Assembly (NCBI GenBank): GCA_014384515.1
Contig: JACNFS010000139.1
Span: 1 to 21,912, forward strand
DNA length: 21,912 nucleotides
Direction of reading: 5' to 3'
Source of the DNA: Dehalococcoidia bacterium
Lineage (GTDB): Bacteria; Chloroflexota; Dehalococcoidia; GIF9; UBA5629
A program made the position numbers and the translations under genes. This document shows positions 1,741 through 7,536 of this stretch, piece after piece (the stretch's first letter is position 1; every line of letters starts with the position of its first letter). The notes beneath the pieces are model-generated. The model did not search any database and had not been told where the DNA came from. It was given only the letters and a program-made list of their open reading frames with translations.

Positions 1741-2211
1741 ATGCCAAGGCGAGCTAAGGTAGCAAAAAGACAAATACCTCCTGATGCCAAGTATGGAAGC
1801 CATATCGTGGCCAAGTTTATCAATAGAGTAATGTCGGACGGGAAGAAAGCCAAAGCCGAGCGGATTGTCTACGAGGCTTTGGATTTGGTTAATGAACAAT
1901 TGAAAACGGAGCCCTTAGAGGTTCTGGACCAAGCGATCAAGAATGCTACTCCCGTACTCCAGGTCAAATCGCGCCGTGTTGGTGGTGCTACTTATCAGGT
2001 GCCAGTTGAGGTTCAACCCGACCGCGGGTTGTCCCTGGCCCTGCGTTGGCTTCTCAACTATGCCAGAGCTCGCAGTGGCAAATCTATGGCGGAGAAATTG
2101 GCGGCTGAAATTGCTGATGCTGCTCAGGGGCAGGGAGCAACTATCAAGAAGCGGCAAGATACTCATAAGATGGCTGAGGCAAATAAGGCTTTTGCTCATT
2201 ACCGATGGTAA
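1741..2211 (+). CDS. rpsG: 30S ribosomal protein S7
   Basis: S7 is the primary protein that nucleates assembly of the 30S head on 16S rRNA and contacts E-site tRNA. The 156 residues match the family length. They show [20 protein letters not shown] at the N-terminus, [22 protein letters not shown], the beta-hairpin segment [19 protein letters not shown], and a C-terminal helix ending [14 protein letters not shown]. The ATG follows the rpsL stop with no spacer (TAGATG), and a GGAGG at 1730-1734 lies inside the end of rpsL, so translation of the two is probably coupled. In E. coli S7 represses its own operon by binding the rpsL-rpsG junction; here that spacer is absent, so that mechanism is unlikely in the same form. 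Confidence 0.98.
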
Positions 2212-2257
2212 CGACAGTAGGGATTAAGGCTCAACAGGCCAAAAAAGCGGTTGGCAT

Positions 2258-2263
2258 AGGAAA
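2258..2263 (+). promoter_or_regulatory. Ribosome binding site deciding the fusA start
   Basis: AGGAAA at 2258-2263 is 7 bases upstream of the ATG at 2271. It supports that codon over the upstream in-frame ATG at 2205, which overlaps the rpsG stop and has no comparable site. The 2271 start also gives the usual EF-G N-terminus, with the P-loop beginning near residue 17. Confidence 0.6.
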
Positions 2264-2270
2264 TAATGTC

Positions 2271-4349
2271 ATGCCCAGGACTTTTCCCTTGGACAAGGTG
2301 CGAAACATAGGGATCATTGCCCATATCGATGCTGGCAAGACTACTGCCACTGAGAGAATCCTGTTCTATACCGGTCGCACCTATAAGGTTGGTGAGGTAG
2401 ATGATGGCACAGCGGTGATGGATTGGATGGAGCAGGAGCGGGAGCGGGGCATCACCATCACTGCTGCAGCTACCGCTTGTCAATGGCAAGGGCATCGCAT
2501 AAATATCATTGACACACCGGGGCACGTGGATTTTACCGCAGAGGTAGAACGTAGTCTCCGAGTGCTGGATGGAGGGGTAGTGCTACTTGATGCTGTGGCT
2601 GGAGTAGAGGCTCAGTCAGAGACAGTATGGCGACAAGCGGATAGATACAGCGTGCCAAGAGTCTGTTTCATCAACAAGATGGATAGGGTTGGCGCTGACT
2701 TTCATGGCACCGTAGCTATGATTGAGGAGCGTCTGCGGGCCAAAGCTGTACCAATACAGTTGCCGGTGGGCGAGGAGAATCAGTTTCGAGGTGTCATAGA
2801 CTTGGTTGACAATAAGGCTTGGCTCTTCTCTGACGATGTTGGTGCTACGCCAGTGGAAATGCCTATTCCAGAGGAAAAGAAAGATGAGGTAACCAAACAA
2901 CGTCAGGAGTTAGTTGAGAGACTGGCCGAGAATGATGACCAATTGATGTTGCTCTATCTGGACGGTGGGGACATTTCTGGTCCGCAAGTCAAAGCTGCTA
3001 TAAGAAGGTTGACTCTGGCTAATCGGATAGTACCCGTCCTTTGCGGCAGTGCTTTGAAGAATAAGGGAATCCAGCCCTTGCTCGATGCCGTTGTAGATTA
3101 TCTGCCTTCCCCTTTGGATGTACCTCCCGTTCATGTTATTGATTCCGAAACTGGCGAGGAGATTCTGCGGCAGGCGAGTGACGATGCTCCGTTCTCAGCA
3201 CTAGCTTTCAAGGTAGTTGCCGACCCTTTTATGGGGAGGTTGGTTTATTTTCGGGTTTACTCAGGTAAGGTCAAGGTGGGAGCACAGGTCTTAAACTCGA
3301 GCAAAGGGCAGAAGGAACGCCTGGGAAGATTGATTCTTATGCATGCCAATCGCCGTGAAGAAATCGAAGAGGTTGATACCGGTAGCATTGCGGCTACTCT
3401 CGGCCTTAAGAATACCTTCACCGGGGATACTCTGTGTGAATTGGGTCAGCCAGTGCTTCTTGAGTCTATTCGTTTCCCTGAGCCAGTGCTTTCGCTGGTT
3501 ATTGAACCTAAGAGCAAGGCTGATCAAGACAGACTGGGCGAAGTCCTGAATAAGCTTTCGGAAGAGGATCCCACTTTTAAGATGCGCAGTGACCAGGAAA
3601 CCGGGCAGACTCTTATCTCGGGGATGGGCGAACTGCATCTGGAAGTCTTGATAGACCGGATGTTGCGCGAGTTCAATGTTGGGGTGAGGGTTGGCAAGCC
3701 ACAAGTGGCCTATAAGGAGACCATCACTGTACCGGTGGAAACTGAGGGTAGATTTATTCGTCAGTTCGGGGGTCGAGGACAGTATGGTCATGTCTGGCTT
3801 AGGCTTGAGCCTGGAGACCGAGGAAGCGGCTTCAAGTTTTTTGACCGGGTTCGAGGCGGAGGTATACCAAAGGAGTATATTCCAGCGGTGGAGGCGGGAA
3901 TCAAAGAGGCTTTAGAAACCGGGGTGGTAGCTGGGTATCCGACAGTGGATATCAAAGCGACTCTGTATGATGGTGGCTTCCACGAAGTGGATTCCTCGGA
4001 GTTGGCTTTTAAGATGGCAGGTTCAATAGCTTTGAAAGATGGTGTCAGCAAGGCTAACCCTATCCTACTCGAGCCGATTATGAAGTTAGAGTTGGTGGTG
4101 CCAGCCCAGTTTCTGGGTGATGTCATCGGTGATTTGAATTCAAGAAGAGCACATATTGAGGGCATCGAGACCCACGGTGAAACTTGCGTTGTTCATTCCG
4201 TTGTTCCTCTGGCTGAGACTTTTGGTTATGCTACTGCCCTAAGGTCACTAAGTCAGGGTAGGGCAACCTATTCCTTGGAGTTTCATTGTCGTAGGGAACT
4301 CCCCACCAACTTGGCGGAGCAAATCATAGTTAGGGCTAAAGGGGTTTGA
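2271..4349 (+). CDS. fusA: Translation elongation factor G
   Basis: EF-G is the GTPase that drives translocation of tRNA and mRNA through the ribosome and, with RRF, splits post-termination ribosomes. From ATG 2271 the protein has 692 residues, the normal length. Domain I shows the P-loop AHIDAGKTT (17-25), switch [11 protein letters not shown] (59-68), DTPGHVDF (81-88), NKMD, and CGSAL as the G5 motif. Domains III-V follow, with [29 protein letters not shown], the domain IV loop [21 protein letters not shown], and [17 protein letters not shown]. The frame is open 22 codons further upstream to ATG 2205, which overlaps the rpsG stop; I reject that start on ribosome binding site and family grounds. 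The next gene is rpsJ rather than tuf. Confidence 0.97.
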
Positions 4350-4658
4350 ATGCCTAAGCAAAACATTCGAATCAAAGTCAAGGGGTACGACCACAGGCTG
4401 GTTGACCAATCAGTAGAGCAAATTGTGGAGACTGCAGAGCGCACTGGTGCCGTAGTTGCTGGCCCCGTACCCCTACCTACTCATATCCAGAAGTTTTGTG
4501 TAATTCGCTCTCCCCATATTGATAAAGATTCGCGAGAGCAATTCGAGATTCGTACTCACAAGCGCCTCATTGACATTATAGGGCCAACTTCCAAAACGAT
4601 AGATGCGCTGACCCAACTCCAGCTACCTTCCGGGGTAGAAATAGACATCAGATTGTAG
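4350..4658 (+). CDS. rpsJ: 30S ribosomal protein S10 (NusE)
   Basis: S10 is a 30S head protein that doubles as transcription factor NusE, binding NusB in antitermination and NusG to couple polymerase to the ribosome. The 102 residues are the standard length. Characteristic segments are [40 protein letters not shown], the loop residues [19 protein letters not shown], and the C-terminal [11 protein letters not shown]. Its ATG directly follows the fusA TGA (TGAATG), joining the str and S10 clusters without a spacer or promoter. In many bacteria S10 begins a separate operon with an L4-regulated leader; no such leader is possible here. Confidence 0.98.
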
Positions 4659-4666
4659 TTGGCAGA

Positions 4667-5278
4667 ATGATTCAAGGTATCGTTGGCAGAAAGATAGGTA
4701 TGACTCAGCTTTTCCAAGATGGTGGAGAAGTAGTGGTAACGGCCATTGAGGCTGGTCCTTGCTTTGTTACTCAGATAAAGACTGAAGCCAAGGATGGCTA
4801 TGACGCTGTGCAGGTCGGCTTTGGGGAAGCAAAGCGGCTTAATTCTGCACAGAAAGGCCATCTTAAGGACGTGGGTCGGTTCAAGTATCTCCGCGAGTTT
4901 GATATGGAAGACATCGAGTCTGCCCAGGTGGGACAGAAACTTGATGTAGATATGTTCAAGTCAGGTGATTTGGTCGACGTCACTGGCACTTCAAAAGGCA
5001 AAGGGTTTGCTGGCGTGGTTAAGCGTCACCATTTTGCTGGCGGACCGAAAACTCATGGGCAATCCGACCGTCATCGGGCACCCGGTTCCATTGGTGCTGG
5101 CACGAACCCAGGCAGGGTGTTTAAGGGAACACGTATGGCTGGACACATGGGGAATAGGCGAGTAACCGTGCGTAATCTTAAAGTAATCGATGTCGATTTG
5201 GCTCGCCACTTAATTCTGGTTGAAGGGGCGGTGCCCGGTTCCAACAAAGGGCTGCTGCTCATCAAGAAAGCCGGGTGA
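4667..5278 (+). CDS. rplC: 50S ribosomal protein L3
   Basis: L3 is an early assembly protein of the 50S subunit whose extension reaches toward the peptidyl transferase centre. The 203 residues include the opening [19 protein letters not shown], the central [20 protein letters not shown], and the signature [18 protein letters not shown] followed by [19 protein letters not shown]. The Gln in HGQSDRHR is the residue methylated by PrmB in E. coli. The ATG lies 8 bases after the rpsJ stop. No convincing Shine-Dalgarno site precedes it, so ribosomes finishing rpsJ may simply reinitiate. Confidence 0.98.
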
Positions 5279-5291
5279 GGGTTAAGCAAGA

Positions 5292-5948
5292 GTGCAAGTT
5301 CAAGTTCATGATTTCAAGGGTGGAATAACCGGCCAGATGGAAATAAGGGATGACGTTTTTGGTGTGCCCTTTAATGAGGCTGTTGTGCACCAGGCGCTGG
5401 TAATGCAGCTAGCCAATCGTCGTCTGGGTACTGTTGAGACTAAGAGAAGAGGAGAGGTTAGGGGGAGCACCAGGAAGCTTTTTGCTCAGAAGCATACTGG
5501 TCGCGCACGCCGCGGCGACGTAAGGTCGCCCCTACTCAGGGGAGGTGGAGTGGCTTTTGGTCCTCACCCCCGAAGTTACCGGCAGGCTATGCCCAAGAAG
5601 ATGCGACGTTTAGCTTTAAGATGTGTGCTGTCTGCCAAAGCCAATAGTGGGGAATTGAGAATCGTGGACAAGCTTGGACTAGATGAGCCAAGAACGAAAG
5701 GAATGCTGGGTATCTTACTGGCGCTAGGAGTCGGCACTTCTGTTATTGTTGCTACTATGGAGGCCGAAGCCAGTGTGGTTAAATCAGCCCGCAATTTACC
5801 GGGCGTTAAGACAGCGCCAGCAGGTCTGCTTAATGTGGCCGATTTGCTCTCCTACAGAGCGTTAGTAATGACTGTAGACGCAGTGCGGAAGGTGGAGGAG
5901 TTGTGGGGTCAAAAACCGGTCCAGAAGGCAGCGACTAGCGTCACGTAG
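5292..5948 (+). CDS. rplD: 50S ribosomal protein L4
   Basis: L4 binds 23S rRNA and sends a long loop into the exit tunnel near L22. In enterobacteria it also represses the S10 operon. The 218 residues show FNEAVVHQALVMQLANRR, the tunnel-loop region TKRRGEVRGSTRKLFAQKHTG followed by GRARRGDVRSPLLRGGGVAFGP, and PKKMRRLALRCVLSAKA. They end in the usual alpha/beta core with KTAPAGLLNVADLLSYRALVMT. The start is GTG at 5292, giving MQVQVHDFKGG; TGAGGG at 5275-5280 overlaps the rplC stop and serves as ribosome binding site. A short polar tail (about 12 residues) extends past the core. Confidence 0.97.
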   Translation: MQVQVHDFKGGITGQMEIRDDVFGVPFNEAVVHQALVMQLANRRLGTVETKRRGEVRGSTRKLFAQKHTGRARRGDVRSPLLRGGGVAFGPHPRSYRQAMPKKMRRLALRCVLSAKANSGELRIVDKLGLDEPRTKGMLGILLALGVGTSVIVATMEAEASVVKSARNLPGVKTAPAGLLNVADLLSYRALVMTVDAVRKVEELWGQKPVQKAATSVT

Positions 5949-5975: not shown

Positions 5976-6260
5976 ATGCATCTTTACGAAGTGTTACGGC
6001 GGCCTTTGATTACTGAGAAGATCACGCTGCTTCAAGCGCAGAACAGGTATGGTTTTGAGGTGGCAAAGGGGGCGGCTAAGCAGCAGATTAAGGAAGCGGT
6101 GGAGGCAGCGTTTAAGGTTGAGGTGGTTAGGGTGAATGTGATGACTGTTCCGGGGAAAATGAGAAGGATAGGCAGGCGACAGGTATTGACTCCTTCTTGG
6201 AAGAAAGCAATCGTTACCTTGGAGCCAGGGCAAAAGATAGAGTTCTTCGAAGGAGTCTAA
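5976..6260 (+). CDS. rplW: 50S ribosomal protein L23
   Basis: L23 lies beside the exit of the polypeptide tunnel and is the main docking site for trigger factor and the signal recognition particle. I choose ATG 5976, which gives the typical opening MHLYEVLRRPLITEK and 94 residues. The frame is open to a TTG at 5958, adding an atypical MGFCIT, and neither start has a strong ribosome binding site. Further markers are YGFEVAKGAAKQQIKEAVEAAF and VNVMTVPGKMRRIGRR, then a C-terminal strand WKKAIVTLEPGQKIEFFEGV. In most bacteria rplB would follow directly; here a 31-codon gene intervenes. Confidence 0.96.
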   Translation: MHLYEVLRRPLITEKITLLQAQNRYGFEVAKGAAKQQIKEAVEAAFKVEVVRVNVMTVPGKMRRIGRRQVLTPSWKKAIVTLEPGQKIEFFEGV

Positions 6261-6277
6261 GGAGAAGAGGACTAGAA

Positions 6278-6373
6278 TTGGGCTCAGTTATCAAGAAACG
6301 GAACAAGAAGATGGCGAAGCATAAGCATCGCAAGATGCTTAAGAAGAGCCGCTGGCAGAGGAGACATCCGTAG
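6278..6373 (+). CDS. bS22-like / AURKAIP1-COX24 domain ribosomal mini-protein
   Basis: A 31-codon ORF fills the rplW-rplB gap and starts with TTG at 6278. Its residues 1-18 are MGSVIKKRNKKMAKHKHR and 19-31 are KMLKKSRWQRRHP. From memory this closely matches the actinobacterial small-subunit protein bS22 and the AURKAIP1/COX24 domain (mitochondrial mS38), whose core is MGSVIKKR, M.KKKHRK and RR. More than half the residues are Lys, Arg or His, as expected for a peptide buried in rRNA. AGAGG at 6266-6270 stands 7 bases before the TTG, and the spacing to both neighbours is that of a normal operon gene. Family knowledge suggests binding to 16S rRNA near the decoding region; incorporation here is inferred. 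It is short enough that many gene finders would miss it. Confidence 0.88.
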   Translation: MGSVIKKRNKKMAKHKHRKMLKKSRWQRRHP

Positions 6374-6392: not shown

Positions 6393-7223
6393 TTGGCACT
6401 GAGAACTTATCGTCCGACATCACCAGGTAAGCGTGGCATGGTTAGTATCTCGTTCGACGAGATAACCAAGTCAGTCCCTGAGAAGTCTCTGCTCAAGCCA
6501 TTCAGGAAGAAAGCAGGGCGCAACAACAGAGGCGTGGTAACTGTGCGGCATCGGGGCGGTGGGCCTAAGCGTAGATTGCGCGCAATTGATTTTAGGAGAG
6601 ACAAACTTGGTGTCCCTGGGAAAGTGGCTGCGATTGAGTATGACCCCACTCGCTCGGCTCGCATCGCTCTCATCCATTATGTAGATGGAGACAAACGTTA
6701 CATTCTTGCCCCCTTGGGACTCGGCGTGGGTGACATCATAAAAGCGGGGGATGGTGCTGAAATAAAGCCGGGCAATGCTTTGCCGCTAGGCTCGATCCCT
6801 GACGGCACCCTGATTCATAACATCGAACTCCAACCGGGCAAGGGCGGGCAGCTGGTGCGTAGCGCTGGGGTGGGAGCTCAGCTGTTGAGTAAGGAAGATA
6901 AACATTCGCTTATCCGTTTGCCTTCGGGAGAAGTACGGCGTTTCTTGGCTGATTGTTTGGCTACTGTGGGCCAGGTAGGTAATGTTGAACATCAGGGTGT
7001 GAAGTTGGGGAAGGCTGGACGCAGAAGGTTGCTGGGGCGACGTCCCAAGGTTCGTGGTTCGGCCATGACACCCCGAGACCATCCCCACGGGGGTGGTGAA
7101 GGGAGAGCTCCGCGGGGGATGGCACCAAAGACACCGTGGGGCAAGCCAGCTTTGGGCCGTAAGACACGCCGTAACAAGGCTTCAGATAGATTGATTGTCA
7201 GACGGCGAAACGTGGAAAAGTAA
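6393..7223 (+). CDS. rplB: 50S ribosomal protein L2
   Basis: L2 is one of the most conserved 50S proteins, needed for subunit association and peptidyl transferase activity. The 276 residues start at TTG 6393 ([15 protein letters not shown]), with GAGGG at 6382-6386 as ribosome binding site. Seen in order are [49 protein letters not shown], and the C-terminal signature [21 protein letters not shown], which includes the conserved His of the HPHGGGEG loop. Length is normal. The TTG start is unusual for so highly expressed a gene, but no ATG nearby fits. Confidence 0.98.
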
Positions 7224-7242: not shown

Positions 7243-7536
7243 ATGTCGCGTTCATCCAAGAAAGGTCCTTATTGCGATGCCAAGTTGTTTAAGAAAATAG
7301 ACGCACTCAATCGGTCTGGGGAGAAGGTGGTGATAAAGACTTGGTCGCGCGCCTCTACTGTTATGCCTCAAATGGTAGGTCATACTATTGGAGTACACGA
7401 CGGTCGACGGCATGTGCCCATCTTTGTCACTGAGAATATGGTGGGGCATAAGCTGGGGGAGTTTGCTATGACCCGGACATTCCGAGGGCACACCAGCAAG
7501 GCACAAGTAACTGTTCAGGCAAGGAAGAAGAAGTAG
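7243..7536 (+). CDS. rpsS: 30S ribosomal protein S19
   Basis: S19 forms a complex with S13 in the 30S head close to A-site tRNA. The 97-residue product carries [59 protein letters not shown] and [13 protein letters not shown], all characteristic. ATG 7243 is preceded by GAGGAGG (7226-7232) and a nearer AGGAAG (7234-7239). It lies between rplB and rplV, the normal S10-cluster position. Confidence 0.98.

Follow-up and report, generated by a model that had tools for sequence, protein, structure and literature searches.

The small ribosomal protein bS22 is already known from Actinobacteria, Bacteroidetes and Borrelia (PMC10618245, PMC10085706, PMC13118837), and in Streptomyces it has been reported for 927 of 929 genomes (PMC13118837). 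It is described as binding a pocket of the 16S rRNA formed by helices h2, h27, h44 and h45 and as touching helix H68 or H67 of the 23S rRNA (PMC10618245, PMC10085706). The actinobacterial proteins (mycobacteria, Cutibacterium, Streptomyces; NCBIfam NF047430) share with the peptide analyzed here a length of about 31-33 residues, an MGSVIKKR-type start, a basic helix and a score above the equivalog cut-off. The proteins of Borrelia burgdorferi and Flavobacterium johnsoniae are likewise small and easily missed and occupy the same rRNA pocket; the Borrelia gene starts with GUG (PMC10618245). The main text of that paper gives no S10-operon position for them and does not contain the word 'operon'. 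In cytosolic ribosomes, the same pocket accommodates eL41/aL41 (PMC10618245, PMC10085706). Here, we describe a bS22 frame that resides between rplW and rplB in a Dehalococcoidia bacterium. It is best read as an ordinary bS22 that adds a member to a known family, the new part being its lineage-fixed place in the operon. This arrangement was not found in the literature searched on bS22 in Chloroflexi or Dehalococcoidia and on the S10 operon in Dehalococcoidia; most subscription papers lie outside that search.

The reading frame and its operon setting

The window, i.e., the whole stretch of DNA that was analyzed, is an entire contig of 21,912 bases. It carries a ribosomal-protein cluster in the order rpsL-rpsG-fusA-rpsJ-rplC-rplD-rplW-[bS22]-rplB-rpsS-rplV-rpsC and on, in which rplW, rplB, rpsJ, rplC, rplD, rpsS and fusA were named by models and the other genes by eye from their translations. 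The features around the frame are:

4350..5948, + strand: rpsJ, rplC and rplD, S10-operon genes upstream of rplW (each above the cut-off of its NCBIfam equivalog model)
5976..6260, + strand: rplW (uL23), upstream neighbour (Pfam Ribosomal_L23, E 1.1e-30; NCBIfam NF004363 above cut-off)
6266..6270, + strand: putative Shine-Dalgarno sequence of bS22, AGAGG, separated from the TTG by 7 nt (taken from the sequence)
6278..6373, + strand: bS22 gene (30S ribosomal protein bS22 / COX24_C), TTG start, 31 codons plus TAG (family models, conservation)
6393..7223, + strand: rplB (uL2), downstream neighbour, also with a TTG start (TIGR01171, 398.6 bits, cut-off 174.5)
7243..7536, + strand: rpsS, first gene after rplB (TIGR01050 above cut-off)

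The gap between rplW and rplB that holds bS22 comprises 132 nt. No promoter- or terminator-like sites were found between positions 5900 and 6600, a result that says little because shuffled sequences average only 0.5 and 0.7 sites. No tRNA or Rfam matches were obtained across the window. As a side observation, fusA (in the stretch 2205-4350) is followed directly by rpsJ without an intervening tuf, and the best EF-Tu match of the source genome resides on another contig.

As read from the sequence, the bS22 frame extends over 31 codons from TTG at 6278-6280 to the stop codon TAG at 6371-6373, and the coordinates, start codon, length and peptide sequence given in the first-pass annotation agree exactly with the DNA. 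A 58-residue form starting at 6197, present in the list of open reading frames, was dropped, as it overlaps rplW and lacks support from models or conservation. The TTG at 6278 is preferred because it is where the family models start and where conservation sets in. The AGAGG at 6266..6270 is likely to act as the Shine-Dalgarno sequence; purine-rich stretches were seen by eye in front of many of the orthologues used in the selection analysis.

The peptide is strongly basic (14 lysine or arginine and three histidine residues out of 31). It reaches 65.4 bits (cut-off 34, E 3.6e-18) against the equivalog model NF047430 (ribo_bS22) in a near full-length alignment, with residues 1-30 matching positions 1-30 of the 31 in the model. 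The search against the AURKAIP1/COX24 domain proposed in the first-pass annotation yielded 33.8 bits for Pfam PF08213 (COX24_C; gathering cut-off 23, E 3e-8). A comparison of the peptide with chains of solved structures gave 15 distinct sequences with E values of 1 or less. The top five were bS22 or DUF1713 chains with E values from 9.9e-13 to 8.6e-6, the best-scoring of which carries two repeats. Chain 8crx_X, a bS22 that we take to be from Cutibacterium acnes, matched with an E value of 1e-7 and with 22 of 30 residues identical, as counted on the alignment. The remaining ten matches were mS38-type chains with weak E values of 0.05 to 1; eL41/aL41 was not among the 15 sequences. Mitochondrial mS38 (AURKAIP1, COX24), which shares the COX24_C domain, typically has a long N-terminal part before it. 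Such a part is absent from the 31-codon frame, whereas six of the ten matched mS38-type chains have 137-200 residues and chain 3j9m_A3 (199 residues) is matched only at 129-155. Kinship with mS38 is marginal by single-sequence search. The call of the frame as an mS38-related bS22 is upheld by curated models above cut-off and by matches to chains that their depositors named bS22. The profile search found one bS22 in the source genome, which is 76.9% complete, and the idea of a second copy was dropped.

Conservation of frame and position

Within the order of the source genome, NF047430 matched in 79 of 84 genomes, once in each, including 26 of 26 genomes with at least 90% completeness and at most 5% contamination. 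An rplB match was likewise present in 79 genomes, and the five without bS22 are the same five without rplB, so that the locus is probably missing from these assemblies. The fixed operon place claimed in the first-pass annotation is evident in 78 of the 79 bS22-positive genomes, where rplB follows bS22 on the same strand at a distance of 12-93 nt; in the 79th (G409), the two genes are split over contig ends, bS22 starting at base 1 of its contig and rplB at base 65 of a different one. Direct reading of 41 S10-linked loci (40 by pattern, L255 by eye in printed frames) placed the peptide between rplW and rplB in every case.

Selection was assessed on 71 linked loci including repeat genomes, 65 from the order and six from outside. 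A pattern found the gene in 67 of them, giving 50 distinct coding sequences (28 starting with TTG, 21 with ATG and one with GTG); L142, L143, L148 and L255 gave no pattern match and were dropped. In the bS22 frame, pN was 0.13 and pS 0.82 (pN/pS 0.16), and the relation was reversed in the other two frames of the same 50 sequences (pN 0.29 and 0.28, pS 0.15). The conserved, codon-biased sequence that had been expected in relatives is therefore present, and in place of the absent conservation, frameshifts or stops named as counter-evidence there are matches across the order and a frame under silent-site bias.

Outside the order, the S10 place is rare. In a sample of 400 genomes of the phylum, 98 matched bS22 (83 over the cut-off), and rplB was located in 94 of these; G056, G063, G342 and G366 lack an rplB match and stay unplaced. 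As judged by comparing position tables by eye, bS22 adjoins rplB in ten of the 98, namely the source genome, eight others of its order and G057 from another family of the class. In the other nine genomes of the class in this sample bS22 is away from rplB, and the S10 place was seen in none of the 79 bS22-positive genomes of other classes (rplB located in 75). In a sample of 393 genomes of the class, 124 matched (118 over the cut-off), 47 in the order and 77 outside it. Six of the latter are S10-adjacent (G057, G483, G484, G497, G509, G586), and three bS22-positive genomes without an rplB match (G486, G644, G647) are unplaced. Taken together, these counts show a fixed S10 place within the order and the same arrangement in no fewer than four other families (f6, f99, f100, f113). 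Absences of bS22 are soft, since divergent proteins may escape a model of 31 positions used with a first-look step.

A scan of named GTDB species genomes, some identical with genomes of our samples, gave 134 confirmed loci. Among the best 80, rplB lies next to bS22 in at least 13, all titled Dehalococcoidia, Chloroflexi or Chloroflexota. Together with the insertion in the same operon across the order, this led us to drop a stray actinobacterial contig as the origin of the window. Nearest to the window among the matches listed was L158 (Dehalococcoidia bacterium PowLak16_MAG20; 82% DNA identity over 4.4 kb). In the DNA fetched for the 67 non-linked loci among these 80, there was no match to 31 proteins of the window's cluster, nor to rpsE or five small cluster genes. 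Every listed locus with Actinobacteria, Actinomycetota, Actinomycetes or Acidimicrobiia in its title is among these 67, in contrast to the window gene, which lies inside the S10 operon. The first-pass annotation had presented bS22 as an actinobacterial type; the family is indeed present there, but its spread is wider, as titles among the 67 listed non-linked loci comprise Nitrospirae, Acidimicrobiia, Desulfobacteraceae, Acidobacteria, Armatimonadetes and Chloroflexi.

Away from the S10 operon, the neighbours of bS22 vary, as read at 25 places in 24 genomes (26 places were fetched and G129, L101, was left out). The neighbour names proB, proA, GAPDH and DNA polymerase III delta' subunit rest on recognition by eye. 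In seven loci from several Dehalococcoidia families (L095, L096, L256, L258, L259, L260, L261), bS22 adjoins an apparent proB and/or proA. Genome G662 has two full bS22 matches (C2:76530-76619 and C22:1282-1371; L256, L257), neither on the contig with rplB; the second is either a paralogue or contamination, which is given as 6% for this genome.

The rplW-rplB junction and the history of the S10 placement

According to the first-pass annotation, the rplW-rplB junction is usually free of genes. In the main, this stands. In class members that lack a bS22 match, the gap measures at most 50 nt in 24 of 26 cases (83 nt in G162 and 424 nt in G210), and in those with bS22 elsewhere it measures 1-18 nt in nine of nine. 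Longer gaps without bS22 do occur, however, in three of 22 loci of other classes (89, 177 and 180 nt) and in seven of 12 readable gaps of the order to which G162 belongs (83-424 nt), so that gap length alone is no proof of a gene. The 424-nt gap of G210 (L074 / L244) contains an open frame of about 130 codons that is not bS22-like.

Six of seven gaps longer than 80 nt, with that of G210 left out, were scored for relics against a profile of 13 bS22 peptides and 300 shuffles. A 14-residue stretch in the G162 gap resembles the bS22 start and beat all 300 shuffles; the G553 gap beat 288 of 300, and those of G596, G614, G529 and G561 scored at chance level. In a MAFFT alignment read by eye, five gaps of 83-98 nt from the order of G162 (L043 1412-1494, i.e., that of G162, L238, L241, L243 and L250), two of them from one genus, have one stretch in common. 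The resemblance in G162 is suggestive of a decayed bS22 copy, perhaps left over from an earlier S10 placement, although the tree described next puts this order outside the clade of the linked rows.

A tree was calculated from rplD, rplW and rplB of 78 chosen genomes (20 S10-linked, 28 with bS22 elsewhere, 24 without and six outgroup; rplD found in 74) by a quick method with SH-aLRT support only, which leaves 23 of 75 inner branches open. All 20 linked rows fall into one 33-row clade (SH-aLRT 95) that also contains seven rows with bS22 elsewhere and six without; the order of G162 is placed outside this clade. S10 linkage requires three changes on the tree, as compared with a mean of 17.8 for shuffled labels, and none of 500 shuffles was as low. 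Three changes fit one gain and two losses or three gains equally. We infer a single relocation into the S10 operon within one Dehalococcoidia subclade, after which the gene was kept. Repeated entry of bS22 into the gap, or entry by transfer from one lineage to another, would also agree with the three linkage changes on a tree whose branches are weak around families f6 and f113 and the order, and with a distance to rplB that varies from 12 to 93 nt within the order. We nevertheless consider repeated entry rather unlikely, given that the linked rows share one clade and that one gain with two losses comes at the same number of changes. A further scenario, which we put forward tentatively and hold for possible rather than probable, is that a large clade of Dehalococcoidia had bS22 as a fixed S10 gene from early on and that some of its lineages lost it later, with decayed remnants in a sister order (best in G162, L043) and nothing left in family f5. 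If this is true, one of the most conserved gene orders of bacteria would record how a ribosomal protein was gained, used and lost.

Proposed role in the ribosome

Very probably, the window encodes a working bS22 that moved between rplW and rplB in one Dehalococcoidia subclade and was retained there by purifying selection. The basic 31-residue peptide would be made from the S10-operon mRNA with its own TTG start, and its position between rplW and rplB suggests co-transcription with proteins of both subunits. By analogy with ribosomes of solved structure, it would form a bent helix that occupies the h2/h27/h44/h45 pocket of the 16S rRNA and contacts 23S rRNA at the subunit interface.

Two other explanations of the frame have to be weighed. 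A chance basic frame or an untranslated operon spacer might be suspected in view of merely 31 codons, a non-ATG start, a lysine-rich product within a ribosomal operon and the long bS22-less spacers at this junction in some relatives. An equivalog score far above the cut-off, peptides of close similarity in this position throughout the order and a silent-site bias confined to the bS22 frame make this explanation exceedingly improbable. Alternatively, the operon copy could have another job, for instance translational feedback on the S10 operon or action as a free basic peptide, while the rRNA pocket is filled by another protein or by none. The free bS22 peptide of C. acnes is reported to inhibit the growth of three bacteria and E. 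coli cell-free translation (PMC10085706), and the two matches of G662 both lie off the rplB contig. A division of labour of this kind is nonetheless very unlikely where bS22 is present as a single copy, as it is in the incomplete source genome and in all 79 genomes of the order that have a match.

Taking bS22 as the working ribosomal protein, an uncultured Dehalococcoidia order joins the bacteria in which 30S subunits with bS22 are to be expected. The patchy presence of bS22 (98 of 400 genomes) makes the phylum a useful group for asking what goes along with gain or loss of this protein. The fixed place in the S10 operon provides gene-order evidence, independent of sequence likeness, for bS22 as a ribosomal protein in these organisms.
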